From: Kiritimatiellia bacterium
Lineage (GTDB): Bacteria; Verrucomicrobiota; Kiritimatiellia; RFP12; UBA1067
Direction of reading: 5' to 3'
Assembly: GCA_017563185.1 (NCBI GenBank)
Contig: JAFXIL010000067.1
Coordinates: forward strand, 1-41,801
Length of the DNA: 41,801 nt
Notes under the pieces: model-generated
Told to the model about the DNA's origin: nothing
What the model saw: only the letters and a program-made list of their open reading frames with translations
Databases searched by the model: none
Shown here: in pieces, positions 6,277-34,109 of the stretch
Position numbering within the stretch: position 1 is the first letter of the stretch
How the letters are laid out: every line of letters starts with the position of its first letter
Program-made: the position numbers and the translations under genes

Positions 6277-9060
6277 TCACTCGAATGCAAGGGTTGGGTC
6301 GAACGGGAAGCGACCGAACTTCGCGCCGTAAATGGCGAGGCCGGCCTTGTCGGCCTCGAGACGCACCACTGCCTTGCCGTTGCCCTTGGCGAGCAGTTCC
6401 GCGCTCACCTCGGCCTCGACGAGATATCCGTAGCTGCCGGCCTCGTGCAGGGTTCTGTCGCGCTTCTGCGAATGCCAGGAAAGGATGCCGCGATGGTCGG
6501 CCGGGTCGTCGGGCAGGACCATCGTCTTAACGAGCTCTCCGTTCACATACACCTTCACGGCGCCAGGCCACTTGACGTCGCTCGTCATGGGATAGGAGTT
6601 CGGGTTCTTGGAGCGGTCGGCGAAACCGCCGCCGAGCATGCAGTCGAGATCGACGGCGCCCTTGTCCTTCACGCCGTCTGCGTCCTTGGCGTTGAGACGC
6701 TTGGATCCCACCTCGGCGCGGAACATGGCCTTCTTTCCGGCGGGCACACCCGTGAACTCATATTCGAAGAAGCCCTTCCCCGCGCCGCACGCCTTCAGGC
6801 CGCCGAGCACGTTCCACTGCTTCTGGCTCCACTCGGCACGCGCGAATGCGCCAGGCATCACCGTGAGCGCGTTTGCGGCCTTCTCGCCGCGCGTCACGAA
6901 ACAGGCGAAATTGCGCGCGACGGGCGTGGGCGAAGAGCCCTCGTCCTCTGGACCGGCAAAGAGGCCGAACAACACGATGCCGCACGCCGTCTCGCCGGGC
7001 AGGACCACGGGCACGTCGGCAATGCGACCGTTCTGCCAGGCGCTGGCCGTGAAAGTGGGTCCCTTCGGGAGATTCTGCTCGCGGAAGCGGCCGCAGACGT
7101 CCCAGTAAAGCAGCTTGCCGCGCAGGGAGAGGCTGCGCCCGGCGTACCTGTCGGTGGTGAGCGAGATGTCAACCGGCATGGTCCAGGTCTCGCCGGCCTT
7201 GAACTCGCGGCACATCTCCTTGTCGAGCGGCAGGTACGCGTCCGCATGAAGATCCTTCAGCTTCATCCTCCCCTGCGTGAGCTCCTCGATGCCAGTGTAC
7301 TTGGGCGTGCGGTCGAAACGCACATATCCGTTCCACTCGTTGATCACGTCGTGGTGCTCCGTGTAGAGCCAGCCGCAGCACTGCAGACGGCGGCGGAATG
7401 CGTTCATCATCATGTGGTAGTCCCAGCTCCAGTCGCAGTCTCCCGTGGAGCCCTTGTATCCCCACACGTTGCCGCACTCGCTGTTGAACATCGGCGCGGA
7501 GCCCTGCACGAAGCCGCCCACGTAGTTCGCCTTCGAGCCGGGGAAGGTCTGCTTGCAGCGCCGCTCGACCTCGGCCTCCCAGCTGTATCCGGGCAGATAG
7601 CAGTGCCATGTGTTGAGGTCGGTGACGACATGGTCGTTGTGGCAGGGCGAGTTGTCCTCTACGAGGCGCGTGGGGTCGAGCTGCTTCGCGCGGGCGTAAA
7701 TCTTCGCCACCTCGCGGCGTACCCAGGGGGCGTAGCGGCGGGCGCAGTTGCCGCCCCAGTTCTCGCCGTCCGCGAAGAGTCCCCACGTCTCGTTGAACAG
7801 CACCCACGAGAAGATGGACGGGTGGTTGAAGTCGCGGCGCACCATCGCCTCGAAGCAGAAGGCGTGCTCGCGGAACATCGCCTCGCTCGCGGCGCCCCAG
7901 GCGTTCGGCACGTCGGCCATGATCAAAAGGCCGAGCTTGTCTGCCCAGTAGAGCTTGCGCGGAATCTCGACCTTGATGTGTACGCGGTTGCCGCTGAGGG
8001 CGAGCTTCTTCGAGATGAGTATCTCGTTCTTCATGAACTCGTCGGACGGAAACGTGTAGAATCCATCCGGGTGGTAGCTCTGGTCGAGCGTGAGCTGCAG
8101 ATAGACGGGCTTGTTGTTCAGCGTCACGCACGGATGCTCCGTGCCGGGTATCTTGCCCACTCCTATCTTGCGCATTCCGAAGTACGTGGCCACCTTGTCA
8201 GGAGGGAAGTCTTCACGCGCCTCTGCGGGCGCAAGCGAACACTGCACCTCGTAGAGGTACGGCGAGTCGAGGTCCCACAGCTTCACGTCGCGCAGCGGGA
8301 TCTTCAGCTTCGCGCCCATCTGCCCGGGTGCGATGGCGATGGAGGCGGGCTTCGCGCGGTCTGCCTCCTTGAACTTGACCTCGAAGCTGAGCGGCACCTT
8401 CGCGGGCGCGCCAAGCGCCACGTCGGCCGTCACGGTGCCGTTCTCTATGTCGGGAGTGAAGTGCACCTTGTCGAGGTACTCCTGGCCGCGTGCCTCGAGA
8501 TAGACCGTCTGCCACACGCCGCGCGCGTTGCCATAGCCCTGCTTGCCGAAGAGACGCCAGCTGCTGCGGGAGCTTTCGGACGACTCGTCCCACGCGCGCA
8601 GCGTGATCTTCTGCGCCTCGCCCCACTTTATGTGACCCGTGATCTCAAACTCGAACGGAGTGTAGCCGCCAGAATGCTCTCCGAGTCTGCGGCCGTCGAA
8701 CCACGCAGTCGTATCGTGGTCGCTCGCACCCACCACAAGAAACACGCGCCTTCCCTTCCATGCTGCGGGCACCGAGACGTCGCGGCGGTACCAGCCAATG
8801 TCCGCCTCGTCCTTCACGCCCGAGAGCGCGCTGCCCCAGGGAAACGGAACGACGATCGACTTGTCGAACTTCGCGTCATCTGCCGAGAACCACTTCTCCT
8901 TCACCCCGGCGTCCGCCTTGTCGAACGCGAAGCGCCAGCTGCCGTTGAGGTTCAGCCACTCGGCGCGTTCCCAGTCAGGACGCGGATGCTCCGGAAGCGG
9001 AATTTCCGCAAAGGCCGGAATGGTCGCAGCCGCCAAGGCGAAGGCTAGTATCTTGGTCAT
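6277..9060 (-). CDS. Secreted glycoside hydrolase family 2 protein
   Basis: This 927-residue enzyme has a Sec signal peptide (MTKILAFALAAATIPAFA). The sugar-binding domain begins WLNLNGSWRFAFD and continues through VVPFPWGSALSGV. A beta-sandwich domain and a TIM barrel follow. FNETWG carries the probable acid/base E424, and FNSECGN the probable nucleophile E528. About 350 further residues form extra C-terminal beta domains (VYVNGELVKTMVLPDDP suggests a carbohydrate-binding or LamG-like module). Family 2 includes beta-galactosidases, beta-mannosidases and beta-glucuronidases; the sequence alone does not settle which. The start at 9060 is set by the signal peptide and AAAGGAA. A promoter is seen 50 nt upstream, so the gene is transcribed separately from the propeller gene. 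Confidence 0.93.
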   Translation of the reverse strand: MTKILAFALAAATIPAFAEIPLPEHPRPDWERAEWLNLNGSWRFAFDKADAGVKEKWFSADDAKFDKSIVVPFPWGSALSGVKDEADIGWYRRDVSVPAAWKGRRVFLVVGASDHDTTAWFDGRRLGEHSGGYTPFEFEITGHIKWGEAQKITLRAWDESSESSRSSWRLFGKQGYGNARGVWQTVYLEARGQEYLDKVHFTPDIENGTVTADVALGAPAKVPLSFEVKFKEADRAKPASIAIAPGQMGAKLKIPLRDVKLWDLDSPYLYEVQCSLAPAEAREDFPPDKVATYFGMRKIGVGKIPGTEHPCVTLNNKPVYLQLTLDQSYHPDGFYTFPSDEFMKNEILISKKLALSGNRVHIKVEIPRKLYWADKLGLLIMADVPNAWGAASEAMFREHAFCFEAMVRRDFNHPSIFSWVLFNETWGLFADGENWGGNCARRYAPWVRREVAKIYARAKQLDPTRLVEDNSPCHNDHVVTDLNTWHCYLPGYSWEAEVERRCKQTFPGSKANYVGGFVQGSAPMFNSECGNVWGYKGSTGDCDWSWDYHMMMNAFRRRLQCCGWLYTEHHDVINEWNGYVRFDRTPKYTGIEELTQGRMKLKDLHADAYLPLDKEMCREFKAGETWTMPVDISLTTDRYAGRSLSLRGKLLYWDVCGRFREQNLPKGPTFTASAWQNGRIADVPVVLPGETACGIVLFGLFAGPEDEGSSPTPVARNFACFVTRGEKAANALTVMPGAFARAEWSQKQWNVLGGLKACGAGKGFFEYEFTGVPAGKKAMFRAEVGSKRLNAKDADGVKDKGAVDLDCMLGGGFADRSKNPNSYPMTSDVKWPGAVKVYVNGELVKTMVLPDDPADHRGILSWHSQKRDRTLHEAGSYGYLVEAEVSAELLAKGNGKAVVRLEADKAGLAIYGAKFGRFPFDPTLAFE

Positions 9061-9109
9061 GTCATGTTCCTTTTGCGTGCGTTTTACGCGGGATGAAGTA
9101 GTTGCCAAT

Positions 9110-9138
9110 ATTCTACCAAAACAAGCCACGACCCGCAA
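9110..9138 (-). promoter_or_regulatory. Promoter of the GH2 gene
   Basis: The minus strand carries TTGCGG (9133-9138), a 17-nt spacer and TAGAAT (9110-9115) with a TGG extension before the -10. The 5' UTR would be about 45 nt. Confidence 0.6.
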
Positions 9139-9242
9139 GAGCGCATGACAAAACGACAAAACAAGAATCGGCAATTTTCGCTCGTGTCTCGGCTCTCGGC
9201 GTTCGCGAACTCAAGCACAGCGGCGCCGGCTTCAGACATTCT

Positions 9243-10619
9243 TCATCGACGTGCTTCGCCGGTGAGCTTGGGGTCATCGAGGTCAAGGCGGTAGAGCACC
9301 TGGGTGTAGTCCCAGCGCGGGGTCTTCGGCGGACGGTCGGCGAAGCTTGACGTATAAGTGCCCTCGAAGAGCAGCACTGGCGATTTGGGATCGCGTCCCT
9401 CCATGTGGATCACGGGATTGTAGAACGTGTAGTTGTCGTGCGTGAGCACCTTGACGGCGTCCTCCCACGGGCCGTACGGAGACTCGCTTTCGACATACCA
9501 CACCTCGCCGAAGCCGGATGGCTTCCCGAACTTCTGCTGCACTATCGCAACGTACTTGCGCCTGTATCCGCTCCACGCCATCTGCCCCGAGGCGGGCGTC
9601 ACCTCCGAACCGTCGCGCGCGCGAATCTTCGTCGGCTTCTCAACCTTCTCCCACTTCGACTCGTCGAGGTAAGCTTCGTACGAATCGGGAATCCGCAGAA
9701 ACGGAAACGGGTTGCCGAAGAGAAGCCACTTCTTCCCCTTGGGGCCAATGTACCTGCTCACCGTGCAGTCCGGCATGCGCGGGGACTTTGGCCGCTCGGC
9801 CGAGCGCGTCCACACGGTCTTGACGATCTTGAAGCGCTGCTCCTTGTCGTCCCATTCGCACAGTCCCGTCTTCTCCGGAGTGCAGAACTCCTTGATCTGG
9901 CTCCACGCGCCGCACAGATGCTCGTCACCCTTCGCGTCCTTGACCGTCACGAGGCCGAATATCCATATCGGGCCGCCGCCCTGGCGCTCTATCACGCCGC
10001 AAAGGCGTCCCTTCGCGTTCGTGAACGGCCGATACGGCGGATCGACGGGCGGAACCATGCTGGGGAAGGCGGGCGCAGGCGTTGTTGCCGCCGTCACGTT
10101 GAAGATGCCGAGCGGGTAGTTCTGCATGTTCGTATCGCCCCAAAGCCAGAACACGCGCCCCTTGTAGAGCGCGGTCTGCACGCTGTCTCGCCCGAACTCG
10201 CCGCTCTCGCGCGCGTCAAGACGCTCGCCGCACTTCTGGCTCTCGGCGAAGAGGCCCGCGCCGCCCACGCGGCCGAGGCGCTTCGCGATCTGGTTTCGCG
10301 TCACCTTCACCACGTGTTCGCCGCCCGGACGAGGAACGAAACGAAATCCCGCGTTGCCAAAGCCATCCTTCTTCATTCCGTATCCGTGGCTCTTGACTGT
10401 GAACCACGTCTCGCGGCCCATGAGCTCGGGCGAGTCGATCGCCGCCACGCCCGCATTGTCCGTCACGTACCGCTGGGCGTGCGTGGTGGTGAGAAACACA
10501 AGCGGCACCGGCCAGCCGTTCTCCGCGTCAACCACCTTCACCTTGCACGGCTCCACGCCCGCGCACGCAAGCGCAAACGTGGATGCGAGGATGAAAGATC
10601 CTTGACTTGCGGACATCAT
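9243..10619 (-). CDS. Secreted beta-propeller-like protein with an N-terminal regulatory-type beta domain
   Basis: The 458-residue protein has a signal-like N-terminus (MMSASQGSFILASTFALACAG). Residues ~25-110 (CKVKVVDAENGWPVPLV, TDNAGVAAIDSPE) resemble a carboxypeptidase-regulatory/transthyretin-like beta-sandwich. The rest has repeated WxxG/D strand motifs (VFWLWGDTNMQNYPLG, GQMAWSGYRRKYVAI, PYGPWEDAVKVL, LLFEGTYTSSF), like the five-bladed propellers of GH43/DUF4185-type proteins. I do not recognise a characterised enzyme; a sugar-related role is likely by neighbourhood. The ATG at 10619 follows GGAAGA and lies 14 nt after the PPTase-fusion stop codon, so it is probably the last gene of the KS-like operon. 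The much longer open frame reaching 11576 runs antisense-like through that gene and is not real. Confidence 0.72.
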   Translation of the reverse strand: MMSASQGSFILASTFALACAGVEPCKVKVVDAENGWPVPLVFLTTTHAQRYVTDNAGVAAIDSPELMGRETWFTVKSHGYGMKKDGFGNAGFRFVPRPGGEHVVKVTRNQIAKRLGRVGGAGLFAESQKCGERLDARESGEFGRDSVQTALYKGRVFWLWGDTNMQNYPLGIFNVTAATTPAPAFPSMVPPVDPPYRPFTNAKGRLCGVIERQGGGPIWIFGLVTVKDAKGDEHLCGAWSQIKEFCTPEKTGLCEWDDKEQRFKIVKTVWTRSAERPKSPRMPDCTVSRYIGPKGKKWLLFGNPFPFLRIPDSYEAYLDESKWEKVEKPTKIRARDGSEVTPASGQMAWSGYRRKYVAIVQQKFGKPSGFGEVWYVESESPYGPWEDAVKVLTHDNYTFYNPVIHMEGRDPKSPVLLFEGTYTSSFADRPPKTPRWDYTQVLYRLDLDDPKLTGEARR

Positions 10620-10633
10620 GGGAAATCTTCCTT

Positions 10634-13600
10634 TTATGCAAACATGCTTTCGGGGATGAAGCAGCTGGCGAGCACATGCCCCTTCACCACCGCGGAGGCG
10701 ACGTGCACAGGGCGGCCGGTGAACTGCCTGAACGACTCGAGCCACTGCCCCGTGAGGCGCAGCTCCATCTCGCCCGTCTCCGCCTGGAACGACTCCACCA
10801 CAAGTTCGCGCGGCGAGTAGCGTATGCCCGTTCCCAGCGCCTTCGACACCGCCTCCTTCGCGCACCAGAACCTGACGGCCGCGCTTGGCGCGCTCGCGGC
10901 GCGCACAGTGAGCTCGCGCTCCTCGTCGGTGAAGACGCCGTGCGTGAACTCTTCGGAGAGGTCGCGTCCAAGCGCCTCCACGTCCACCCCCACGCGCGCG
11001 TTCGCAGCCACCACCGCCACCACGAACTGCGCGGTGTGCGCGATCGTGAGGTCTATGGACGAGGCAAGATAGTCGCGCCAGTTGCCGATGGCGTGCGGCT
11101 TCCCGCTGTCGTCTCGCCAGATCTGCACGTCGGCGTCGCACCAGCGGGCCTGGTAGTTCTCGTGCAGGAAGCGGCGTACAGCCTCCTTTGCCGCGAGGCG
11201 GCCGAAAAGCCATTCCGTGCGCCGGCCGGCAGAGCCGGAAAGGTCGGCGAAGTCGCCGCGCTCCGTCTTGCCCAGCACGACCTGCGAGAGAGTCTTGAGC
11301 CACAGCTCCTCGTTGCGCTCGAACACGGGATAGGGCACCTCGGTGACGAAGGCGGACGCCACGCGCGTCGCTGGAGAGCCGAGTATTGCGGGCGGCAGCG
11401 GACACGTGAGAAACGTGGTCGCGGGATCCAGGATCTGCTTGCGGAACTCCTCCGAGACGCGTTCGGTGATCTCCTCGTAGCCGCGCATCTCGAGCATCAG
11501 CTGTCCGTTGCCGTCGGAAGCCAGGATGTCCGTCACGAGCGACTTCGGCGTGACGCCCGTGTGGCGCAGATAGCACTGCAGCCGCGTCCCCTCGGGAAGC
11601 GGCGCGTAAAGGCTTATGCGGCGCACGCGGAACGGAAACGAGAGCGCGCCGGGGAAGCGGCGCTCATGGCTGCGCCACAGCTGGAAACCGTCCGCCACCG
11701 CCGCGAGAAGCTGCGGATTAAGCGCCCACACGGGGAACTTCGTATGGGGCACCGAGCCTTCGGAGGACGGCACCTCCACCTCGTAGTCGAGGCCTGTCTC
11801 GCTCCAGTGGTCTGCCGCGCGTATGCAGTGCAGGCTCTCGCCGGAGAAGAGGCGGTCGGGGTATATGTCGCTGCCGGCCCAGTGCACGTCGCGCGCCTTG
11901 GAGAGCGGCGGCGGCACGAACGCGGGAGCGGCCGGGTATTGCTGCGCGAAGACGAACGTGCCCTCAAGCGCGCACCAGGTCCATTTCGAGTCGGGCGCGT
12001 CCTCGCGCACCTGCACATGCACGGCCACCTGGTCGGGGTTGGCGCTTGCGGTGCGTTCGGCGCGCACGAAAAGGCGCAGTCTGTCGTCGCGGAACGCGAC
12101 TGTGCGGCGGCACTGGAGGTCTTCCACCGACACCACGCGGCGGGCGGGCACTATCGCCTGCGCGACTTCTGCCATGATCTCGGCCGCCGCCACTGGATGC
12201 AGCAGCACGAGGCCGTGGAGCTTTGCGTCTGAAAACGCAATGCGCCCGGCGGCGCCGATCGCGAAGTCGGCGAGAAACGGAGTGTTTGCGAAGGTGAAGG
12301 TCTTCACCACCTCGCGTATGCCGGGCTGGTCGTCCACCGTCTCGGCATCGGAGACCAGCGGACTCGTGGCGCCGTACATGAACTGCTGCTGCCGCTGCCA
12401 CGCCCGAACCGCCGCGGCCGCGCGCCTCTCAGCGCCCTTTCTGCGCGCGCCAGGCGTGCTGTCGGCCGCGCTTGCCATCACTCCGCCAAAGGACGCGTCC
12501 GCCGCAACCAGCGCAAGACGCGGGAAGTCTCTTGAAAGGCGCAGTTCCGTCTCGGACCTCACCTCGAGCGCGAACGGCGCGTCGAAGTCTATGAGCCTCG
12601 GCCTGCGGTGCGCAAAGAGCGCCGTCGTCTCCACGGGGGCTCCAATTGCCGCAAGCGCCCCCACCGTGTGCTCCAGCTGCTGCAGGCCGGCGCGGTGAAT
12701 CACGTCCGCCGCAAGCGCCATGTGCTCCTCGCCCTTCAGAACGTCGTCCACCACGCCCGTCAATACGCCTCGCGGCCCAGCCTCGAGAAACACGCGGTAG
12801 CCATCCTCGTACATCCGCCTTATCGTGTCGCCGAACCTCACCGGCGCCACCCACTGGTCGGCCGCCTCGTCGCGCGCACGGCGCGTCTTCGGCGGCAGCG
12901 GGGCGGCGCTGCCGCACGAATAGACCGGTATCGTTCCCGGCTGGTCCACCCACCTGCTCGCCAGCTTGTGGAAGAGCGGCAGCACCTTGCGGCACCAGGG
13001 CGTGTTGAAAGGACGGTCCACCGGCAGGCGCATGCCGCGCACACCCGCCGCAACAAGCGCCTTCTGCACTTCGTCCACCGCTTCTGGCGCCACGGCGAAC
13101 GTGCTTTGCCGCGGCGAAAACACGAACGCCGGCTGCACCTTGTCGGGTCCGAACGATGCAATCGCCTCTGAAAGCGCGTCGGGACGGGGCGACACCGCAG
13201 CGAGCAGAACGCACTTCGGCAGTCCCTGGTGCGCCACCGCGTTGTTGACCACCTTGTACGTGTCGCGCAGGAAGTCCAGCCTTTTCTTGCGGTCGAACTT
13301 CTTCCCGAAGAGCCCTCCTGCCACGAGCGCGTTGAGGTCGCCGCCGGCGAAGCCGGTAGCGCCCTCTGGACGTATTCCAAGCGCCTCCAGGATGCGCGCC
13401 ATAGCCGCGTTCGCGGTGTAGGTGGAGACCACCGTCTCGGCGTATGCCCCAGCCGTGAACACGTCGGCGTCGTGCCGGTAGTACGAGGCCGGCGGGAACA
13501 CGAACGCCGACGGCTGGAACTGCCCGGCGTCTGCAAGCGCCGCCTCCAGCTCGTCAAACGGCAGACGGCACTCGCGGAACCTCACAGAGAGGTCGCGAAG

Positions 13601-13975
13601 CATGTCGGGGTAGAACGACGCAGCGCCAGGGAAGACGAACGCGAGCTTTCCAAGGCCTTCGCCCAGCAGATGGCGCCTGAAATAGTAGGTGCCGCTCTTG
13701 TCGCGCACGCGAGCGGTGCCGCCGCGTATGCGCCCTGCGGCCGAGATGAGACGCGCGCGCAGCTCGCCGGCCGAGCGAGCCACGATGGCCAGCACTGCCG
13801 TGCGCGATTCGGGGAAGCGTCTGGCGCAGGTGTACGCCACGTCGCGCAGCGGCACGCCGGGAGCCTGGTCGAGAAAGCGCACAAGAGCATCCGCTGCGTC
13901 AGCAAGCGCAGCGTCGTCCGCCGCGCCCAAGAGCACAAGCTCGCTGCCGAACGCCTCGCTGAGGTCTGCGTTCAT
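10634..13975 (-). CDS. PKS-like fusion: degenerate acyltransferase, degenerate dehydratase and intact 4'-phosphopantetheinyl transferase
   Basis: This is a 1113-residue multidomain protein. Residues ~110-430 have the malonyl/acyl-transferase fold (LAFVFPGAASFYPDML), but the GHSxGE elbow reads GFAGGD (Ser replaced by A210) and the catalytic AFHSP His is FNTP (N324). Residues ~555-850 resemble a double-hotdog PKS dehydratase, yet the expected LxDH reads LADF (F571), LPG reads LHP, and the HPxLLD Asp appears to be Ala (NPQLLAAV). Residues ~885-1105 form an Sfp-type PPTase with GVDVE (D998, E1000) and WCAKEAVSK (K1040, E1041, K1045), all metal/CoA motif residues present. The gene overlaps the KS-like gene by ATGA. 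The frame is intact and its codon use normal, so it is not an obvious pseudogene. The AT and DH parts are probably structural or binding domains; the PPTase may be active. No ACP is encoded in the window. Confidence 0.82.
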   Translation of the reverse strand: MNADLSEAFGSELVLLGAADDAALADAADALVRFLDQAPGVPLRDVAYTCARRFPESRTAVLAIVARSAGELRARLISAAGRIRGGTARVRDKSGTYYFRRHLLGEGLGKLAFVFPGAASFYPDMLRDLSVRFRECRLPFDELEAALADAGQFQPSAFVFPPASYYRHDADVFTAGAYAETVVSTYTANAAMARILEALGIRPEGATGFAGGDLNALVAGGLFGKKFDRKKRLDFLRDTYKVVNNAVAHQGLPKCVLLAAVSPRPDALSEAIASFGPDKVQPAFVFSPRQSTFAVAPEAVDEVQKALVAAGVRGMRLPVDRPFNTPWCRKVLPLFHKLASRWVDQPGTIPVYSCGSAAPLPPKTRRARDEAADQWVAPVRFGDTIRRMYEDGYRVFLEAGPRGVLTGVVDDVLKGEEHMALAADVIHRAGLQQLEHTVGALAAIGAPVETTALFAHRRPRLIDFDAPFALEVRSETELRLSRDFPRLALVAADASFGGVMASAADSTPGARRKGAERRAAAAVRAWQRQQQFMYGATSPLVSDAETVDDQPGIREVVKTFTFANTPFLADFAIGAAGRIAFSDAKLHGLVLLHPVAAAEIMAEVAQAIVPARRVVSVEDLQCRRTVAFRDDRLRLFVRAERTASANPDQVAVHVQVREDAPDSKWTWCALEGTFVFAQQYPAAPAFVPPPLSKARDVHWAGSDIYPDRLFSGESLHCIRAADHWSETGLDYEVEVPSSEGSVPHTKFPVWALNPQLLAAVADGFQLWRSHERRFPGALSFPFRVRRISLYAPLPEGTRLQCYLRHTGVTPKSLVTDILASDGNGQLMLEMRGYEEITERVSEEFRKQILDPATTFLTCPLPPAILGSPATRVASAFVTEVPYPVFERNEELWLKTLSQVVLGKTERGDFADLSGSAGRRTEWLFGRLAAKEAVRRFLHENYQARWCDADVQIWRDDSGKPHAIGNWRDYLASSIDLTIAHTAQFVVAVVAANARVGVDVEALGRDLSEEFTHGVFTDEERELTVRAASAPSAAVRFWCAKEAVSKALGTGIRYSPRELVVESFQAETGEMELRLTGQWLESFRQFTGRPVHVASAVVKGHVLASCFIPESMFA

Positions 13976-15342
13976 CGCCTGTCCTCCGTAGTAGGCTCCT
14001 CCTCGAGAACAAGCGCCGCGCGCCGTCCGCCAAGATCCTCCACCATCACCGCCGCGCGTCTTGGCGAACTGGGATCGCCCGTTATCCACGGACGCGCGTC
14101 GTTCAGCAGATACACTGGGCTTCCAAGATTCGCCAGGCTCTCGAGCGGATGCGCGGCGGGCATCTGCGGCGGCAGCACCTTGCGCCGCAGCGCAAGGGCG
14201 GCCTTGAGGATGGACGCGGCGGCCGACGCGAGAAGGCAGTGGCCCACATTGCCCTTGACGGACCCTATCCCCACAAGCGGCCCTCCAGGCTTGTGCTCGC
14301 CCCACAGCTTCTGCACAGCTGCCACCTGCTCCGCGTCGGCATCCGGTATTCCACTGCCGTCGCCTTCTATGAGCTGTATTGACGCAAGGGGCGCGTCCGC
14401 ACGGTCCGCAGCAGTCTGCAGCATCACATCCATCGGCTGCGCGCCGCACGCCACAGAACGCACAAGCGCGTAGATGCGGTCGTGCGCCTTGAGAGCGTCG
14501 GCTTCGCGCTTCAGCACAAAGAAAGCGCCGCCTTCGCCTGGAATGGTGCCCGTACCGTCGCGGCTGAACGGCACGAGCTCCGTGCCCGTCGAGAACGTGA
14601 CTTCGCCGGAGAGGCCTTCGAGCATCGCGCGGTTGAGGGGGGATGCGACGGCGCCGGCGAGAGAGACGTCGGCGCGGCCGCTGCGGAGGTCGTCTATCGC
14701 GGCGCGCAGGGCGGCGATGCCCGAAAGGGCGCCGGCGTCAAGAGTGGTGGCGCCGCCGGTGAAGGAGCATTCGCGCGCCATCCAGTCCGCAACGCGATGG
14801 CCGAGGCCGGCGAGAAAGCTGCGGGCGTCGGGAGCGGGAAGGGAATCGACGAGCGAGGAGCGGACCATGGCGAGAGCGTCCTCCGGCGCGGAGCGGAAGA
14901 AGCGGCGTATGATGTCCATCGTCTGGTCGATGAAGAAAGTGTGCTCAAGCCAGTTGACAGTCGATGCGCTGAAGGGCGGCGCGTAGCCGAAGCGCACGGT
15001 GCCGCGAACGGGGTCTGCGGAATGTGGACGCATCCCGGCGTCAACCAGCGCATCAAACGCAAGCTGCACGGCAAAATAGAGATCCTGGTTTTCCCCGGAG
15101 TTTATCTGGCGCGGGAAAGTGATGTCGCGCGGCACGCAGGCGTATAGGTCGCCCAGCAGCCCTGCATGCGTTGGATACGGACGCTCGAATAGATTGTGCG
15201 CGCCAGGCGCAAGCGTCATGTCCACCCCCAGCGGAGATATGGCGCTTTCACGGTGCATCACTAGACGCCAGAACGCACCAGGATCGGACGCGCCGGCAAA
15301 TCTGCATGAAACACCCACTATGGCTATCGAGCATTTTTCCAC
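13972..15342 (-). CDS. Ketosynthase-like protein lacking the catalytic Cys and one His (CLF/pseudo-KS)
   Basis: The 456-residue protein has the thiolase-fold beta-ketoacyl synthase layout: CSIAIVGVSCRFAGASDPGA at the N-terminus, PFSRDGTGTIPGEGG in the middle and GSVKGNVGHCLLASAAAS near the end. The nucleophile position (DxACSS in active enzymes) reads DAGALS, giving A205. The first catalytic His (EAHGTG) reads EGDGSG, giving D328. The second His is kept as H368. Condensation is therefore not expected; the nearest known parallel is a chain-length-factor partner. GTG at 15342 is preferred as start because the promoter's -10 lies immediately upstream and the TTG at 15360 would not be transcribed. 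It is translationally coupled (ATGA) to the AT/DH/PPTase gene. Confidence 0.83.
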   Translation of the reverse strand: MEKCSIAIVGVSCRFAGASDPGAFWRLVMHRESAISPLGVDMTLAPGAHNLFERPYPTHAGLLGDLYACVPRDITFPRQINSGENQDLYFAVQLAFDALVDAGMRPHSADPVRGTVRFGYAPPFSASTVNWLEHTFFIDQTMDIIRRFFRSAPEDALAMVRSSLVDSLPAPDARSFLAGLGHRVADWMARECSFTGGATTLDAGALSGIAALRAAIDDLRSGRADVSLAGAVASPLNRAMLEGLSGEVTFSTGTELVPFSRDGTGTIPGEGGAFFVLKREADALKAHDRIYALVRSVACGAQPMDVMLQTAADRADAPLASIQLIEGDGSGIPDADAEQVAAVQKLWGEHKPGGPLVGIGSVKGNVGHCLLASAAASILKAALALRRKVLPPQMPAAHPLESLANLGSPVYLLNDARPWITGDPSSPRRAAVMVEDLGGRRAALVLEEEPTTEDRR

Positions 15343-15350
15343 GGGGTAAA

Positions 15351-15379
15351 ATTCTAGCAAGATACTCGTGAGATGTCAA
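15351..15379 (-). promoter_or_regulatory. Near-consensus sigma-70 promoter of the KS-like operon
   Basis: The minus strand has TTGACA (15374-15379), exactly 17 nt of spacer, and TAGAAT (15351-15356). That is 11 of 12 consensus bases. The transcript should begin near 15344-15347, within a few bases of the GTG start at 15342, so the message is nearly leaderless. Confidence 0.8.
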
Positions 15380-15401
15380 TGAGTGCCTAGTAATGACAAC
15401 A

Positions 15402-15437
15402 AAAGAGGACGGCGCGCATAGGCGCACCGCCCTCTTC
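15402..15437 (-). terminator. Rho-independent terminator after the LamG-like secreted protein gene
   Basis: On the minus strand a long GC-rich stem (AGAGGGCGGTGCGC paired with GCGCGCCGTCCTCT around a CTAT loop, one internal mismatch) is followed by TTTTGTT. It lies about 30 bp past the stop codon and separates this gene from the KS operon promoter. Confidence 0.85.
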
Positions 15438-15466
15438 CATTGAACTTCGGCTAGACCGAACGGATG

Positions 15467-17074
15467 TTACTGAGCAACGACCGTCGCCTTCATGAAGTTC
15501 GTGTTGTCGCCAGTCACCTTGATCGTGGCAACACCATCCGCGTCGAACGTGGCCGTGTAGGCAGCAGCCTCGGCCTCGGCAAGAGCGCCGAGCGTGGCGG
15601 CCGTCTTCACCTTGAGCGCGCCATTGATGCCGTCGAGGGACACCTTGGCGTCGCCAGCCGTGGCCTTGACCGTGATCTGCCAGCCATCAGCGACTTCCTC
15701 GATCGAGGTGATCGCGAGCGCAGGCGCAGCATCCAGACCCGTGTTGAGCAGGTAGGCGTCAAGCGCATATTCGCAGCCGGCGATCTGAGCAGGCGTGAGG
15801 TTCTTCGCATCGGCCCAGGCCTTGGCAGCGGCGGTCGTCACACCATCAAGGCCCGTGGCGCCGGCGGCCTCAGGCGTCGCAGCGAGCTGGGCGGTGTAGT
15901 TGTAGGTCTGACCAGCCTGAGAGACCGTGAACGAGGTGCCTGCGGTGTCATCACCCGCAACATACCAAGGCGCATACGTCACCTGGACGGTGACCTCGGT
16001 GTTCGGCGCGACATCAATCGTCTTACCGCTCGTCGCTGCCACAGTGTCTTCACCGATCGTGTAGGAGACGGCGGAGATGCCCTCGCCCCACTTGAGCGTG
16101 AAATCAAGCGTAGTCACAGCGCCGATGAAGTTAGGCGTAGCCGTGTCGATCTGGAAGTCGTCGATCGCACCCGACCCCTTGAAGCCCACGCCGCGGAAGT
16201 AAGGCTCCTCTTCGGAACCAAGAAGCGAACCGAACACCGAGCCATTTCGAATATCAGTCGCCAGAGCTTCTGTGATATCCTTTCTATTAAGAAGATTGAT
16301 GACGAAATCTTCCGTGAGCGCCTGTTTGTCGGACTTCAGAAGCACACCGTCCAAGTAGATCATGAAGCAAGGATATGCTTCACCGCAAATGTCGGCGATT
16401 GCCTTGACCGTCAAACGATACCAAACGCCGGGAACGACATTGGCATTTGAAATCGTGAACTTCTCCGGCGTACAAGTGCCCTGCTCGTCCATGACGTTCG
16501 CGTAAACGCAAAGATTCGTCACAGGGTTTTCCTCATTCGTCGCATCGACATTGAGCCAGATGGCGATTCTGTCCTGCTCCGCATCAACGGTAGGAATCTC
16601 ACCGTCCTCGGTAGGCGTAAACTGCACCATCGTGTCAACGTAAAGAACACCATCATCTCCCATGTCTAGCAGACAAAGGCCGTCGCCAAGAATGCGCTGC
16701 TGACCATCCGACGTCGTCTCGGTGACACTGCGCCAGAGAGTGCCGCCCTCGGTGGAAAGTTCAAGATACTTCTCCTGGGCAAGCGTCTCATCTGCGAACG
16801 CGGCGGGAACGCCGAACCGGCCATTGTAGTTGAACAACGGCAGATTCTCGTCAACGCCATACACCTTCACGGTGGAGCCGTCGGTAGAACCATTGGCCGG
16901 CTCGTACGCGAAAAAATATCCGCTCGCAACGCTATCCGCGCCGGTATCGGTCCTGCTGCCGATATTGCCCATTCCAGCGGTGAACCCTTCGAAGCCGATG
17001 CTGTTCAGCGGATCAACAACGGCAAACGCAGCGACCGTCGCCGCGCACACACATGCAAACAACAGTTTTTTCAT
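15467..17074 (-). CDS. Secreted LamG-like surface protein
   Basis: This 535-residue protein begins with a Sec signal peptide (MKKLLFACVCAATVAAFA). Residues ~25-310 look like a concanavalin/LamG-type jelly-roll (SIGFEGFTAGMGN, GVWYRLTVKAIADI, FMIYLDGVLLKSD, FKGSGAIDDFQIDT). A beta-sandwich follows (WGEGISAVSYTIGEDT, NTEVTVQVTYAPWYV), then an Ala/Asp-rich helical stretch and a last beta-domain ending FMKATVVAQ. No catalytic motif or membrane anchor was found. This architecture fits cell-surface or secreted binding proteins of Kiritimatiellota/Verrucomicrobia. The ATG at 17074 follows GAAAGGA. The gene has its own promoter and a strong terminator, so it is probably monocistronic. Base use is somewhat less GC-rich than in the neighbouring enzymes. 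Function is unknown. Confidence 0.78.
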   Translation of the reverse strand: MKKLLFACVCAATVAAFAVVDPLNSIGFEGFTAGMGNIGSRTDTGADSVASGYFFAYEPANGSTDGSTVKVYGVDENLPLFNYNGRFGVPAAFADETLAQEKYLELSTEGGTLWRSVTETTSDGQQRILGDGLCLLDMGDDGVLYVDTMVQFTPTEDGEIPTVDAEQDRIAIWLNVDATNEENPVTNLCVYANVMDEQGTCTPEKFTISNANVVPGVWYRLTVKAIADICGEAYPCFMIYLDGVLLKSDKQALTEDFVINLLNRKDITEALATDIRNGSVFGSLLGSEEEPYFRGVGFKGSGAIDDFQIDTATPNFIGAVTTLDFTLKWGEGISAVSYTIGEDTVAATSGKTIDVAPNTEVTVQVTYAPWYVAGDDTAGTSFTVSQAGQTYNYTAQLAATPEAAGATGLDGVTTAAAKAWADAKNLTPAQIAGCEYALDAYLLNTGLDAAPALAITSIEEVADGWQITVKATAGDAKVSLDGINGALKVKTAATLGALAEAEAAAYTATFDADGVATIKVTGDNTNFMKATVVAQ

Positions 17075-17152
17075 CGTTTTTCCTTTCATCCTCTTCAGGG
17101 CAACAGAAAATTCCGCGCCCGTCGTAGGCCCGGTTCTTCTGCTGACGGTTAG

Positions 17153-17181
17153 AGTTTAGCAAAAAACCGAGGCTTGTGCAA
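17153..17181 (-). promoter_or_regulatory. Likely promoter of the LamG-like protein gene
   Basis: TTGCAC (17176-17181), 17-nt spacer and TAAACT (17153-17158) preceded by TGC are read on the minus strand. The 5' UTR would be about 70 nt. Both hexamers are imperfect. The sequence between thrC and this site is T-rich with no clear hairpin. Confidence 0.45.
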
Positions 17182-17200
17182 TAGTGGATGAAAAAATATT

Positions 17201-18601
17201 TCAAAAAAGTTCGCGCACGGCGGCATCGATTCCGTCCACGTCAACAACCTTCGTCTGCGTGACGGTAGCCGTCTCAAGGGCGGCGAACGACGGGGGCGGA
17301 TTCGCGAGCACGTTTTCGCCGAAGGCGCGAAGGCACGTTTCAGGGAACTTGTACGGCGTCGCGGTGGCGGCGACGAGGCACGGCACGCCGTCCTTCGGCA
17401 GCCCCAGCCTGCGCGCCACGGCAGTAGCCACCGCGGTGTGCGGATCAAGCACGTATCCGCACTCGGCGCGCATGCGGCGCATTTCTGCCTCGGTCTCCTC
17501 TGGCGTGACGCTGCCGCACAGGAACTCTTCCTGAAGACGGGCCTTGGCGAAAGGAGAGAGAGCGTAGCGGCCAGTGGCGGCGAATTCGTCCATGAGCCGC
17601 TTCGTCTCGGCTGCCGCCGCGGCAGGGTCTTCGAGTCCGCCGCAGGCAAGCCATATCTCGCGCTCCACGTTCGAGCTGCGGCGGATGTCCATCGACGGCG
17701 AATTCGTGACCGTGAACTTGTCGCCCGGATCGTACACGCCCGTAGCGATGAAGCGCGCCAAAACGTCGTTGACGTTCGAGGCGCACACAAGCCGCCTTAT
17801 GGGCGCGCCCATCAGCTTCGCGTACTTCGCCGCGAGAATGTTGCCGAAGTTGCCCGAGGGGACTGCCACGTCGAACTCGCCGCCCAGCTTCGCGGCCGCA
17901 TAGAGGTAGTAGCCTATCTGCGGCACAAGGCGCCCGATGTTGATAGAGTTGGCCGACGAGAGCCACACGCCATTCGCGGCGGCTTCGGCGCGGATGGCGG
18001 AATCTGCGAAGATGCGCTTCACCGCGGCCTGCGCGTCGTCGAAGTTGCCGCGTATGGCAATGCCGTGCACGTTCTTCGCCGACGGCGTGGTCATCTGGAG
18101 GCGCTGGATGCGCGAGGTGCCGCTGTTCGGGAAGAACACCGCGATCTCAACGCCGGGCACGTCGGCGAAGCCGGCCATCGCGGCGGAGCCGGTGTCGCCG
18201 GAAGTGGCGGTGAGGATGAGAACGCGGCTGCATCCTGCGCGCGACGCGGCGGCGGACATGAGAACAGGCAGCACGGAGAGGGCTACGTCCTTGAACGCGC
18301 CCGTCGGACCATGGAACAGCTCCAGCACATCGAGCCCTCCCGCGTGCACCAGCGGCACTGGCTCGGACGGAAACTTGGCGAGCAGATTGCGAATGGCATC
18401 TTCGCGTACCGCCTCCGCCGCATCGTCGAACACTGCGCCCAGCGCGGATCGCTCGGCCTTCTCAAGCGTGCCGCAGCCTGCAGCCGCGAAAGCCGCAGGC
18501 ACCCGTGCGGGCACGTAGAGACCGCCGTCCGGCGCAAGGCCACGCAGAATCGCATCCAGCGAATCCGCCGTCCCGCACGAGCGCGTGCTCAGAAACTCCA
18601 T
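17201..18601 (-). CDS. thrC: Threonine synthase
   Basis: ThrC converts O-phosphohomoserine to threonine with PLP, the last step of threonine synthesis. The 466-residue protein matches the long (type I) family. It opens MEFLSTRSCGTADSLDAILR with GLAPDGGLYVP, has the PLP lysine K104 in HGPTGAFKDVALSV, the phosphate-binding segment TATSGDTGSAA, NSINIGRLVPQIGYY and PSGNFGNILAAKYAK. It starts 18 nt after the ACT gene with a GGAAGGAAG ribosome site, and so closes the paaK-ACT-thrC operon. A threonine-synthase operon containing an ACT-domain protein could be under amino-acid feedback, but no direct evidence is visible. Confidence 0.95.
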   Translation of the reverse strand: MEFLSTRSCGTADSLDAILRGLAPDGGLYVPARVPAAFAAAGCGTLEKAERSALGAVFDDAAEAVREDAIRNLLAKFPSEPVPLVHAGGLDVLELFHGPTGAFKDVALSVLPVLMSAAASRAGCSRVLILTATSGDTGSAAMAGFADVPGVEIAVFFPNSGTSRIQRLQMTTPSAKNVHGIAIRGNFDDAQAAVKRIFADSAIRAEAAANGVWLSSANSINIGRLVPQIGYYLYAAAKLGGEFDVAVPSGNFGNILAAKYAKLMGAPIRRLVCASNVNDVLARFIATGVYDPGDKFTVTNSPSMDIRRSSNVEREIWLACGGLEDPAAAAAETKRLMDEFAATGRYALSPFAKARLQEEFLCGSVTPEETEAEMRRMRAECGYVLDPHTAVATAVARRLGLPKDGVPCLVAATATPYKFPETCLRAFGENVLANPPPSFAALETATVTQTKVVDVDGIDAAVRELF

Positions 18602-18619
18602 CTTTTTCTTCCTTCCCTC

Positions 18620-19009
18620 TCAGCCCTTCAAGGCCGCCTCGGCCTTGGCGTTGTCGTTGAAGCTGAATACGAGTATCGCCTTCTCTCCATGGCCGAGCGC
18701 GTAGGCGTAGGAGTAGTTTATGTCGAGGCCTGCACCGTCGATCTTCTCCATTAGCTCGGCCATGCCGCCAGGACGGTCCGGCACCGTTACTGTGATCACC
18801 TCCGTCTCGCGGACGGCGAAGCCGGCCTCGGTAAGGACGCGCGCGCCCTTCACATGGTCATCCACGATCATGCGCACGATTCCGAAGTCGGCCGAGTCGG
18901 CAAGCGAGAGCGTGGCGATGTTCACCTCGGCCTTCGCGAGCGCGCGGCAGATGCCGGCGAGCTGGCCAGGCTTGTTCTCGAGGAAGATGCTGATTTGGCG
19001 GATGATCAT
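18620..19009 (-). CDS. Double ACT-domain protein
   Basis: The 129-residue protein is made of two ACT domains in tandem. The first (residues ~3-65) begins RQISIFLENKPGQLAGICRA with the usual N-K-P-G-(Q)-L turn; the second (~70-125) has VTVPDRPGGMAELMEKI. ACT domains bind small ligands, usually amino acids, at dimer interfaces. Stand-alone double-ACT proteins are often found beside phenylacetate-CoA ligase genes, as here. It starts 1 nt after the paaK stop codon, with its ribosome site (AGGAGA) inside the last paaK codons, so expression is coupled. Ligand and partner are unknown. It does not look like the acetolactate synthase small subunit, which has one ACT domain and a longer C-terminal domain. 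Confidence 0.88.
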   Translation of the reverse strand: MIIRQISIFLENKPGQLAGICRALAKAEVNIATLSLADSADFGIVRMIVDDHVKGARVLTEAGFAVRETEVITVTVPDRPGGMAELMEKIDGAGLDINYSYAYALGHGEKAILVFSFNDNAKAEAALKG

Positions 19010-29075: not shown

Positions 29076-29255
29076 TCAACGCTGCCTGATCGCGGGACGG
29101 AAGAACTTCGCCCCGCCGCCGCGCGGATACACGAAGAGCGCCGTGTCGCCGTCCGTCGAAGTGACCACGTATCCCGCCGCCCATTCCGGTGCAGCCCATC
29201 GCCTGCCCCGATGCGAGCCAGTTCGCCACCCGTCTGCCGGATCCGCAACGCACAT
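29076..29255 (-). CDS. Doubtful small ORF or gene remnant after the giant surface protein
   Basis: A 59-residue frame starts in a TGATG overlap with the stop codon of the 1558-residue protein and ends near the purL promoter. Its C-terminal half (EWAAGYVVTSTDGDTALFVY, then PRGGGAKFFRP) reads like genuine protein with beta-strand character. The N-terminal half is Arg/Gly/Trp-rich and looks less natural. It may be a coupled small protein, a remnant of an older gene, or chance. I recognise no family. Confidence 0.3.
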   Translation of the reverse strand: MCVADPADGWRTGSHRGRRWAAPEWAAGYVVTSTDGDTALFVYPRGGGAKFFRPAIRQR

Positions 29256-32200
29256 CACCGTATGAAGAGCGTCATGCCGGTCACAAAGTAGATGCCGTCG
29301 TCGCGCACCTCGATGAACATGCCGCGCCTCTTCATCGCGGCCGAACTGCGGAATCTGGACATCACCTCGTAGGGCGGCGCCTCCTTCCATAGGAGCGCCG
29401 GCTTTCCAAGGCCCTCCGTGCGGTCGCCGATTTCCACGGTCACCGACGTCGCCTCGGTGACAACCACTTGCGGCGGCGGCGGATCCTGCGGCTCCTCGTC
29501 TCCGCCCGCCTCGGGGTCGTCTGTGCCGGAATCTCCGGTTCCCGTACTGGACGCAGGCACCTCTTCGGCCTTGAAGTAGAACGAGAGCGCGCCTTCCTCT
29601 CTGTCGTCGTACGTATCGGTGAAGCGCGAGAGGTCGAGAGTCACCTCAAGATGATCTGCGGCGCCTAGCTGCACCTTGGGCCGCGTAAGGAATCCCTCTG
29701 CGCTCTCCGAGACAACAGGCGGCGCGTACGTCTCGTACACCACCTTCGTCGCCGGCGAGGCGTTCAGCTCGCGGAACGTCGATCCCTCGTGGAAGACAAG
29801 CGACTTGACCGGCGTGAGGTTGCCGGTGTTCTGCCAGTAGCGGCCATAGACATCCACCGCGCATCCGCCTGCCGTCGGGCTCGATATGTGCGTCTGGAAC
29901 CAGCCGTTCGTTGCGATGACGATCCTGCCTTCGCCGGAGTACGACATGTTGCCGGCGAAGATTCGCGTCTCGCCCGTGCCGTCGTACGTCACGGTGTTGC
30001 CGCCCATCGTCATCGTGTTGGCGTTGTAGTTGTAGAATATCATGCCCATGTTGCCGGCGGCGTAGATCGTGGCGTCCGCGCCGAGCGTGACATTGCGCAG
30101 GAACGACATGCCGGTGTTCTGGGCGTAGGCCGTCGCAGCGTCGATATCCGCTGTGCTGATCAGCGCGCCCCTGCCGTCAGGGCCAGCACCTGATAGCGTG
30201 TAGTCGTAGTCGTGGTAGATGCGCCCGTTGAGGTCGAACTGCGCGCCATCCTCCACGACGATGCGCGAATACTGCGCGCCGCACGTCGCGCCGCTCGCCT
30301 TCTTCACCAACCCCTCCTCTACGACCATGGACGTGATGCCGCTGCCGCTGAAGTCATACACTTTGGACATCACGAGCGTTCCCTTGCCAGTCTTGTGCAC
30401 CTGCAGACCAAGCCCGCCGTAATCCGCCGTGCCTGGAGTGCTGCCGCCAAGCGTGATGTTCGACACGTCGCACTCCTCACCCTCCGGCACGTCGAAATAC
30501 AGATAGCTGGACGGGCTGAGCGTTGCATACTTGCTTATGTAGGTACGCCCGTTGTAGCGGGCGATCTGCAACTGATACGAGGTTCCGGCCTTCAGACCCG
30601 TGCGCACATACGGGCCCCATGTCTGGGTGCCGCTGAGATTGGATGTTTTGGGCATCAGACCGCTGACGGAATTAATTCCAACGCTCACATATTGCCCCCA
30701 GGTGGAATTCAACCGCGTTGTCTGAGTTTTGAAGTAGCAGGGACGATCTTTCACCAAAGTGAAATTCTGCATGGCGCTTATGCCCCCTGAACTTGATCCA
30801 AGATAGAGCAGATTGCCACTATAAGACGAACCGCTCACGAAATTGTACGCGTCTGGATTCAGCACGTTGCCCGATGTGATGCGGCCCGTGCCATGCGTCT
30901 TGCGCAGCTTCAGGTCATAGCCCTTGAGCAGAATCGTCTTGCCGTTCATGTCGAAGTCGATCGCGCGCCAGTCGGCATCGGCATCGAGCGTGATGTCGTC
31001 CTGCAGGAACACGGACACGTTTGCGGCGTCAAGCTCGTCCTTGTGCTGTGCCAGCGCCTGGAATTCCCCGTCGGTCGCGAACAGCGCCTTCATGTAGTCC
31101 ATGCCAAGCGTCCACTCGCCGTTGTAGAGGTTCACATCCTCGTCGTAGAAGGCCCAGTGGTCGTGTTCGACGTCGTACTTGACGAACGAAGGCACCTTTC
31201 CGGGGAAGATGTAGAGTCCGTCGGGCCTTGGCAACAGCCCCAGCCGCTCCTTGTTCGCATCGTCCACGACAAAAAAGGCGGTGGACAACTCCGACCACGC
31301 CATCAGAAGAACGCTTCCCGAAAACTCCCGGTCCCCCAGATCGACCGTCACGGTGGAACCGGAGTAGAACGTCGTATTGGTGCCGTCGAACACTCCGTCG
31401 ATGCGCGAGAGATCGAGCGTTGGCTCAAGGTGCGATGCGTCGCCGAGCTGCACGGGCAGGCTCGTCAGCGTGCACTCTCCGCCGTTCAAGTAATTGGCAC
31501 ACGGAGCAAACCTATCCGCCACGACAACCGTGGGAATGCTTCCGGAACCTGCAGCATCGCTCAGAATGCAGGCGCTGCCGGGCTCGAACACGAGCGATCC
31601 GACCGAAGTGAATCCGCCGCAGTCATGGTTCAAAGTGCCGAACACCGTCACGTCGCAGTTCGCCGCAGCCGAGTTGTGGGCGTAGAACGACAGCGCTGCT
31701 CCCTGCGGCACGATGATCGAGCCGGCGCCGCTATACGTCACATTGCCGGCATAGACCGTGGTGTTCGTGTACGTGATCGAGTGCCCTCCCATCGTCATCG
31801 TGGTGGCTGCCCAGTTGCCGTTCTTCAAGTTGAATTCATGGGTGCCGCCGATCACGGCGTTCGTGCCGAGCGTGATGTTGCGCGCGATGAACGACGCATT
31901 GAAGGCATCCGCCACCTCCGTGTTGTTCACGATGGCGCCAAGACCGTCCACACCCGAGCCGGAGATGGTGAAGTCGTAAGCGGCCGAAGACGCACCCAGC
32001 GTGTCGAACTGTCCTTTCTCCAAAACTTCGATACGCGAATTCTTAGCACCGCATCCGGTGTTGTTTGCATTCTCCAATACGCCTTCCTCCACAACAGTTG
32101 ACATCACTCCGTTTCCGCCAATGTCGCCCTTGGCTGTGGACATCACAAGTTTTCCTTTGCCCATCTTGTGTATCTGAAGGCCAAGCCCGCCATAATCGGA

Positions 32201-33931: not shown

Positions 33932-34041
33932 CGTTCTTCTCCAATAGCTGGAGCAACGCGCTCGCGCACGCCGCCCCGGTTGTGACGGAAATTCCTCCGC
34001 CGACCACCCGGCCGACACCATTCCACAATCAAACTTGAAGA

Positions 34042-34071
34042 ATGATACCATATCCCATTGCACATTGACAA
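34042..34071 (-). promoter_or_regulatory. Promoter of the giant surface protein gene
   Basis: TTGTCA (34066-34071), 18-nt spacer and TATCAT (34042-34047) with a TGG extension are read on the minus strand. Each hexamer differs from consensus by one base. The 5' UTR is about 105 nt. Confidence 0.65.
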
Positions 34072-34109
34072 GCGATACTTGTCCAAAAAAGCATCGCGCC
34101 ATAATTCAA

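Follow-up and report, generated by a model that had tools for sequence, protein, structure and literature searches.

The locus analysed here raises the question of what a polyketide synthase (PKS)-like operon, stripped of catalytic residues and carrying a complete PPTase, is kept for. The stretch of DNA examined (41,801 nucleotides from a Kiritimatiellia bacterium, hereafter the window) contains a two-gene operon on the minus strand (15342-10634), which encodes a KS-like protein followed by an AT-DH-PPTase protein. In the original prediction, it was read as a repurposed complex of the PKS/PUFA synthase type with a working-looking PPTase. The present analysis supports this reading at the level of sequence and suggests which carrier protein the PPTase may serve.

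Anatomy of the operon and state of its active sites

The following features were located in the window:

15351..15379 (-), sigma-70-type promoter TTGACA-N17-TAGAAT, 11/12 consensus
13972..15342 (-), KS-like ORF, 456 aa, GTG start
14728..14730 (-), position of the KS catalytic Cys, codon 205, here Ala (register from structure alignments)
10634..13975 (-), AT-DH-PPTase ORF, 1113 aa, ATG start
13748..13948 (-), KS-AT linker domain (CurL/RhiE-like), residues 10-76, Pfam PF22621 3.1e-6
12716..13657 (-), AT-like domain, residues 107-420, Acyl_transf_1 6.5e-8
11456..12358 (-), double-hotdog DH-like region, residues 540-840, PS-DH 7.2e-6
10637..11308 (-), Sfp-type PPTase domain, residues 890-1113, ACPS 3e-15
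10976..10990 (-), PPTase metal motif GVDVE, residues 996-1000; G996, D998 and E1000 invariant in 47 sequences
10850..10867 (-), PPTase motif WCAKEA, residues 1037-1042; W-C-A-K-E invariant

Both frames are intact and coupled, the stop codon of the KS-like gene overlapping the start codon of the AT-DH-PPTase gene in ATGA. The near-perfect promoter described originally was recovered as well; a TTGACA-17-TAGAAT arrangement is expected by chance 0.3 times per shuffle and is found, together with the GTG start, also in the two closest relatives. Since the GTG lies 9 bases beyond the -10 element, the operon mRNA is probably leaderless. No RNA element was found by Rfam in the region 9000-19000.

The KS-like protein matches the Pfam profile ketoacyl-synt (1.4e-21) and the corresponding C-terminal domain (1.9e-16). 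For the AT-like domain, NCBIfam fabD gives 3.5e-16, which is under the curated cutoff, and the PPTase domain matches TIGR00556 above cutoff. Against NCBIfam NF045894, a model of one type I PKS, the two proteins align as consecutive parts (KS-like protein 161-431, then 449-864). The KS-AT linker is, in known PKSs, the part docking on the KS. Structures were predicted using AlphaFold2 with pLDDT 89 and pTM 0.89 for the KS-like protein, and with pLDDT 84 and pTM 0.53 for the AT-DH-PPTase protein, so that the arrangement of the domains in the latter is uncertain. In Foldseek, the KS-like model matches PKS ketosynthases and the KS-AT structures of PKS and FAS; by HMMER, the best PDB match of the KS-like protein is the KS-CLF didomain 6riw (ORF10 in the table of matches), which we take to be PfaC. 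The AT-like domain matches AT domains (TM 0.7-0.8 of target), and DH structures were matched too. Homology to the KS-AT-DH protein family is thus seen in both sequence and fold.

The register of catalytic residues was determined with HMMER against the solved structures of the PfaC KS-CLF (6riw), MAS, CurL and FabD, and with Foldseek. The register assumed originally held in these alignments. The KS nucleophile is replaced by Ala205 and the first catalytic His by Asp328, as predicted; Lys363 and His368 are retained. The AT Ser is Ala at position 210 and the AT His is Asn at position 324. The DH His is Phe at position 571 and the Asp of the second hotdog is Ala when aligned with intact relatives. 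These AT and DH substitutions had been named correctly, and so had the completeness of the PPTase, in which the motifs GKP, AHT, GVDVE and FWCAKEAVSKALG (FWCAKEAxxKALG) are all present. The latter domain therefore shows what defines an Sfp-type PPTase, i.e. P0/P1 GKP and (S/A)HT, GxDxE and WxxKEAxxK, and its WCAKEA motif is kept in every related family having the operon.

A functional type I PKS/PUFA synthase is defined by the KS Cys-His-His triad, the AT Ser-His dyad and the DH His/Asp, none of which is complete here, and no ACP, KR or ER is encoded in the operon. Because these defining active sites and the ACP are missing, the operon is not classed as a functional PKS/PUFA synthase.

The only PPTase of the genome, its probable carrier proteins and its neighbours

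The genome of the window (G000) has one match to PF01648, a profile which could miss a very divergent second PPTase, and this match is the fused PPTase domain. Other genomes, mostly draft MAGs, were compared by family, with f1, f2 and so on as anonymous labels and f1 as the window's own family. A PPTase match was obtained in 105 of 115 f1 genomes, nearly all of which have exactly one, located by its coordinates inside an ORF of ~1100 aa. Those f1 genomes in which the AT-DH-PPTase protein was not found also have no PPTase match at all. An additional PPTase over cutoff occurs in G011 only, a genome which also has a PKS of 2522 aa. In the order-mates f3, f4 and f5, the fused PPTase is likewise the only one, and f2 has stand-alone PPTases in addition to it. 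The sister family f6 of the same order has a stand-alone PPTase instead of the operon, and stand-alone PPTases prevail in the other orders of the class. The f6 enzymes (genomes G242-G255) are divergent, mostly about 280-390 aa long, have weak PF01648 scores and are long-branched in the PPTase tree. In the PPTase-domain tree, the fused PPTases are grouped by a weakly supported branch (60/59), and branches are long.

Fatty acid synthesis of type II (FAS II) is normal in the window genome, with a canonical AcpP (GADSLDSVE), FabH-FabF-FabZ and a FabD-type match. A lipid-type locus with two tandem ACPs was also noticed (L082:6173-8916, contig G000:C61), in which sequences resembling an AMP-ligase/hotdog fusion, an exporter and an acyltransferase were recognized by eye. 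No ketosynthase is encoded near these ACPs; genome-wide, only FabF and the pseudo-KS of the operon were found, and a multidomain partner PKS is absent from this genome. The genome-wide look for an ACP and an active KS that had been envisaged thus yielded carriers and no PKS-type KS.

Because the fused PPTase is the only one of the genome, its carrier is very probably the ordinary fatty acid AcpP, in addition to the two ACPs of the lipid cluster; with AcpP present and no second PPTase detected, it would by necessity be the enzyme activating AcpP. Being the sole PPTase in genomes with a FAS ACP, it would correspond to a housekeeping holo-ACP synthase. Of the earlier suggestion of a chain-length factor (CLF)-like partner for a carrier encoded elsewhere, the carrier stands (very probably AcpP). 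The CLF was rejected, since the genome has no partner PKS KS and the ancestry is that of a true KS with a CASS/H/H site in relatives.

The gene immediately upstream on the same strand is panB in both genomes of f2 and in 13 f1 loci, which belong to basal branches, the gap to the operon being usually a few tens of bases or an overlap. Its identity was assigned by TIGR00222, above cutoff in the member tested. PanB catalyzes the first step of pantothenate/CoA synthesis and its adjacency points to phosphopantetheine metabolism as the role of the operon. The linkage is absent in the window's genus; panB was not found in G000, indicating that the link was lost in this genus, nor in G033. Both species are probable pantothenate auxotrophs, and the window species presumably takes up pantothenate.

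At the other end, 14 loci of one f1 branch (L038, L041, L045-L048, L050, L051, L053, L066, L070, L071, L073 and L078) have a gene for a KamA-like radical SAM protein of the TIGR00238 family (below cutoff), placed at the 3' end of the AT-DH-PPTase gene or overlapping that end.

Conservation within the family and stepwise loss in its relatives

The AT-DH-PPTase protein is encoded in 107 of 115 f1 genomes and in all 29 of high quality, nearly always as a single, stop-free copy. A truncated version consisting of the PPTase only was found nowhere in f1, and the separate KS-like ORF is present in the operon wherever the sequence allows. Catalytic residues were surveyed in 39 KS and 49 AT-DH-PPTase sequences of f1. 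In place of the KS nucleophile, most sequences have A, I, M, T, L, G, S or N, Cys being confined to the genus of L061/L062, and the position of the first His is D in 25, H in 13 and A in one sequence. Lys363 and His368 are kept in 38 of 39. At the AT Ser position, A (24), S (18), G (4), V (2) and Q (1) occur, at the AT His position N (48) and D (1), and at the DH His position none of the aligned f1 sequences has a His. Losses are therefore uneven among f1 relatives, and the PPTase motif is invariant while the KS, AT and DH residues drift. In place of the AT active site, there is a nearly invariant GxxGGD together with PFNTxxC, in which P322-T325 are invariant.

For close pairs, dN/dS is about 0.03-0.06 in the KS-like gene, 0.03-0.12 in AT, 0.02-0.09 in DH and 0-0.14 in the PPTase, hence mostly 0.02-0.12 in every domain; for more diverged pairs, it rises up to 0.1-0.3 in all domains alike. 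The KS-like gene is about as low as the PPTase. Judged from these sequence comparisons, it is a separate, catalytically dead gene under strong selection.

Outside f1, the concatenated tree was rooted by G289, a genome of another order having the same two genes with all KS, AT and DH residues intact. G289 has a separate stand-alone PPTase and, about 6 kb away, a 2535-aa ER-KS-AT-ACP-KR protein. Within the tree, the first family to split off is f4, which has kept the KS Cys but not the AT Ser. It is followed by f2 and then f5, both with an intact AT; the KS Cys is lost in f2 and occurs in a single species of f5. Families f3 and f1 come last (AT His lost, KS mostly lost). The DH His is lost in all five; f37 is the sole exception among operon-bearing families. 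Residual chemistry is possible where the KS site (f4, one f5 species, one f1 genus) or the AT Ser and His (f2, f5) are intact.

Family f18 (L170/L171 in genomes G157/G163) is the mirror image of the window. Its KS (ACASS), AT (GHSSGE/YHTP) and DH (LLDH or LRDH) sites are intact, its PPTase domain breaks off ahead of the GxDxE and WxxKEA motifs, and these genomes have another, stand-alone PPTase elsewhere. It would seem that two halves of one fused ancestor have been retained reciprocally.

As the catalytic residues are all intact in relatives from other orders, the window operon descends from an active lipid or polyketide synthase. Orthologues with normal residues, which were named originally as a sign of sequencing error or recent decay, do exist; they belong to other orders or to other families of the same order. 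Their restriction to relatives outside the window's family shows an ancient loss, stepwise across related families, and not an error or recent decay.

Proposed role, alternatives and comparison with known systems

We consider it probable from these comparisons that the operon is the clade's housekeeping holo-ACP synthase embedded in a pseudo-PKS scaffold. The C-terminal Sfp-type PPTase would transfer 4'-phosphopantetheine from CoA to the AcpP of type II FAS and would also prime the remaining ACPs encoded by this genome. Together with the AT- and DH-like domains, the KS-like protein, joined through translational coupling and the KS-AT linker, would form a pseudo-PKS, which folds and assembles and makes no chain in the window species. 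This pseudo-PKS would have been retained since the PPTase depends on the assembly for its job; its likeliest roles are docking of apo-ACP by the old ACP-binding faces or a control of the PPTase responding to acyl- or malonyl-CoA. Linker-AT-DH and pseudo-KS would represent the former PKS core; its surfaces facing the ACP could keep apo-ACP close to the PPTase, or a CoA thioester could be sensed by the AT pocket, which is altered but conserved (GxxGGD, PFNTxxC). Concerning its origin, the operon may derive from an active lipid synthase made up of KS, AT-DH-PPTase and ER-KS-AT-ACP-KR proteins. The PPTase of this synthase would have assumed the duty of a stand-alone PPTase that was lost, and a stepwise loss of the partner PKS and of the catalytic residues would have followed. 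We tentatively go one step further, as a possibility held at less than even confidence: primary fatty acid synthesis of the clade may proceed via a PPTase holoenzyme that requires the pseudo-PKS (KS/AT/DH) for regulation or docking, e.g. as a sensor of CoA thioesters linking the supply of CoA to the activation of ACP.

Instead of being a passive docking scaffold, the pseudo-AT/KS could regulate PPTase or FAS by sensing malonyl-CoA, acyl-CoA or acyl-ACP as a ligand; this is rather unlikely, but would agree with the new, nearly invariant AT constellation in the window's family, the purifying selection on AT and DH and the panB link to CoA synthesis. However, conservation of the AT could be purely structural and the ligand role is putative. 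A little less likely still, the complex could help to make a lipid or polyketide as a CLF-like or ACP-handling partner of FabF and FAS enzymes in trans, the PPTase being one function among others. The retention of KS Lys363/His368 and, in 18 of 49 sequences, of the AT Ser would fit such a role, as would the KS or AT sites persisting in some relatives and the tandem ACPs of the lipid-like locus. This is opposed by a nucleophile position varying freely within one family, by the loss of the DH His in every operon-bearing family but f37, and by the missing ACP, KR and ER in an operon whose genome has no partner PKS. Although the stepwise and repeated loss of catalytic residues would also be expected of a neutral remnant, dead weight on an essential PPTase, the retention of a separate KS-like ORF with a dN/dS about as low as that of the PPTase and the lack of PPTase-only versions in the family contradict this, and it is very improbable. 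Sequencing or assembly error, or recent pseudogenisation in one genome, is refuted by the same substitutions in long intact ORFs of many independent assemblies.

The domain kinds of the operon are those of PfaA-PfaE and the secondary lipid synthases. In a survey of the latter, each cluster had at least one KS, ACP and KR domain (Shulse and Allen 2011, PMC3098273). G289 resembles these synthases in having the KS, the AT-DH-PPT and the ER-KS-AT-ACP-KR protein, whereas the window operon lacks ACP, KR and ER and has lost its KS, AT and DH sites. Proteins from Streptomyces and Rhodobacteraceae (KS-AT-DH-PPT or AT-DH-PPT; H1, H3), compared by domain order and identity, have the same domain order and 26-28% identity over 64-70% of the length; within biosynthetic clusters, they are neighbours of a large PKS or an SDR protein. 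In enediyne PKSEs such as CalE8, the PPTase is fused behind the DH, and the synthase is active and has its own ACP. The PPTase of the window protein is likewise found behind the DH, but the synthase part is inactive and there is no ACP in cis. With the Sfp/AcpS holo-ACP synthases, including those of bacteria with a single broad PPTase, the fused domain shares the superfamily motifs and the predicted position as sole PPTase serving AcpP. The known enzymes are small and stand-alone or part of an active FAS, whereas here the PPTase is the tail of a pseudo-PKS beside a pseudo-KS.

Fusions of a PPTase with an active PKS are already known, as are bacteria having one PPTase only; in the literature searched, no description was found of a family-wide housekeeping PPTase on a dead PKS with a co-encoded dead KS. 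In this uncultured gut family of Kiritimatiellae, the predicted sole AcpP-activating PPTase is the tail of a dead, conserved PKS-like protein. A secondary-metabolism enzyme would thus have acquired, through its tail, an essential and near-universal bacterial activity, the formation of holo-ACP; the synthetic part of this enzyme subsequently lost its catalytic residues, while its sequence stayed under constraint. The related families provide a natural case of pseudoenzyme evolution with active, half-active and inactive states, including the reciprocal outcome in the sister lineage f18, where the PKS was kept and the PPTase half lost. The annotation 'polyketide synthase' is misleading in these genomes, and the function of the pseudo-KS/AT is now directly testable.

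Two further ORFs of the window were noted. Directly downstream of the operon, a 439-aa secreted-looking protein is encoded (9243-10562, minus strand), which has no Pfam or NCBIfam match. A protein of 1615 aa (29255-34102, minus strand) has a divergent InlB B-repeat match and is likely a surface protein.
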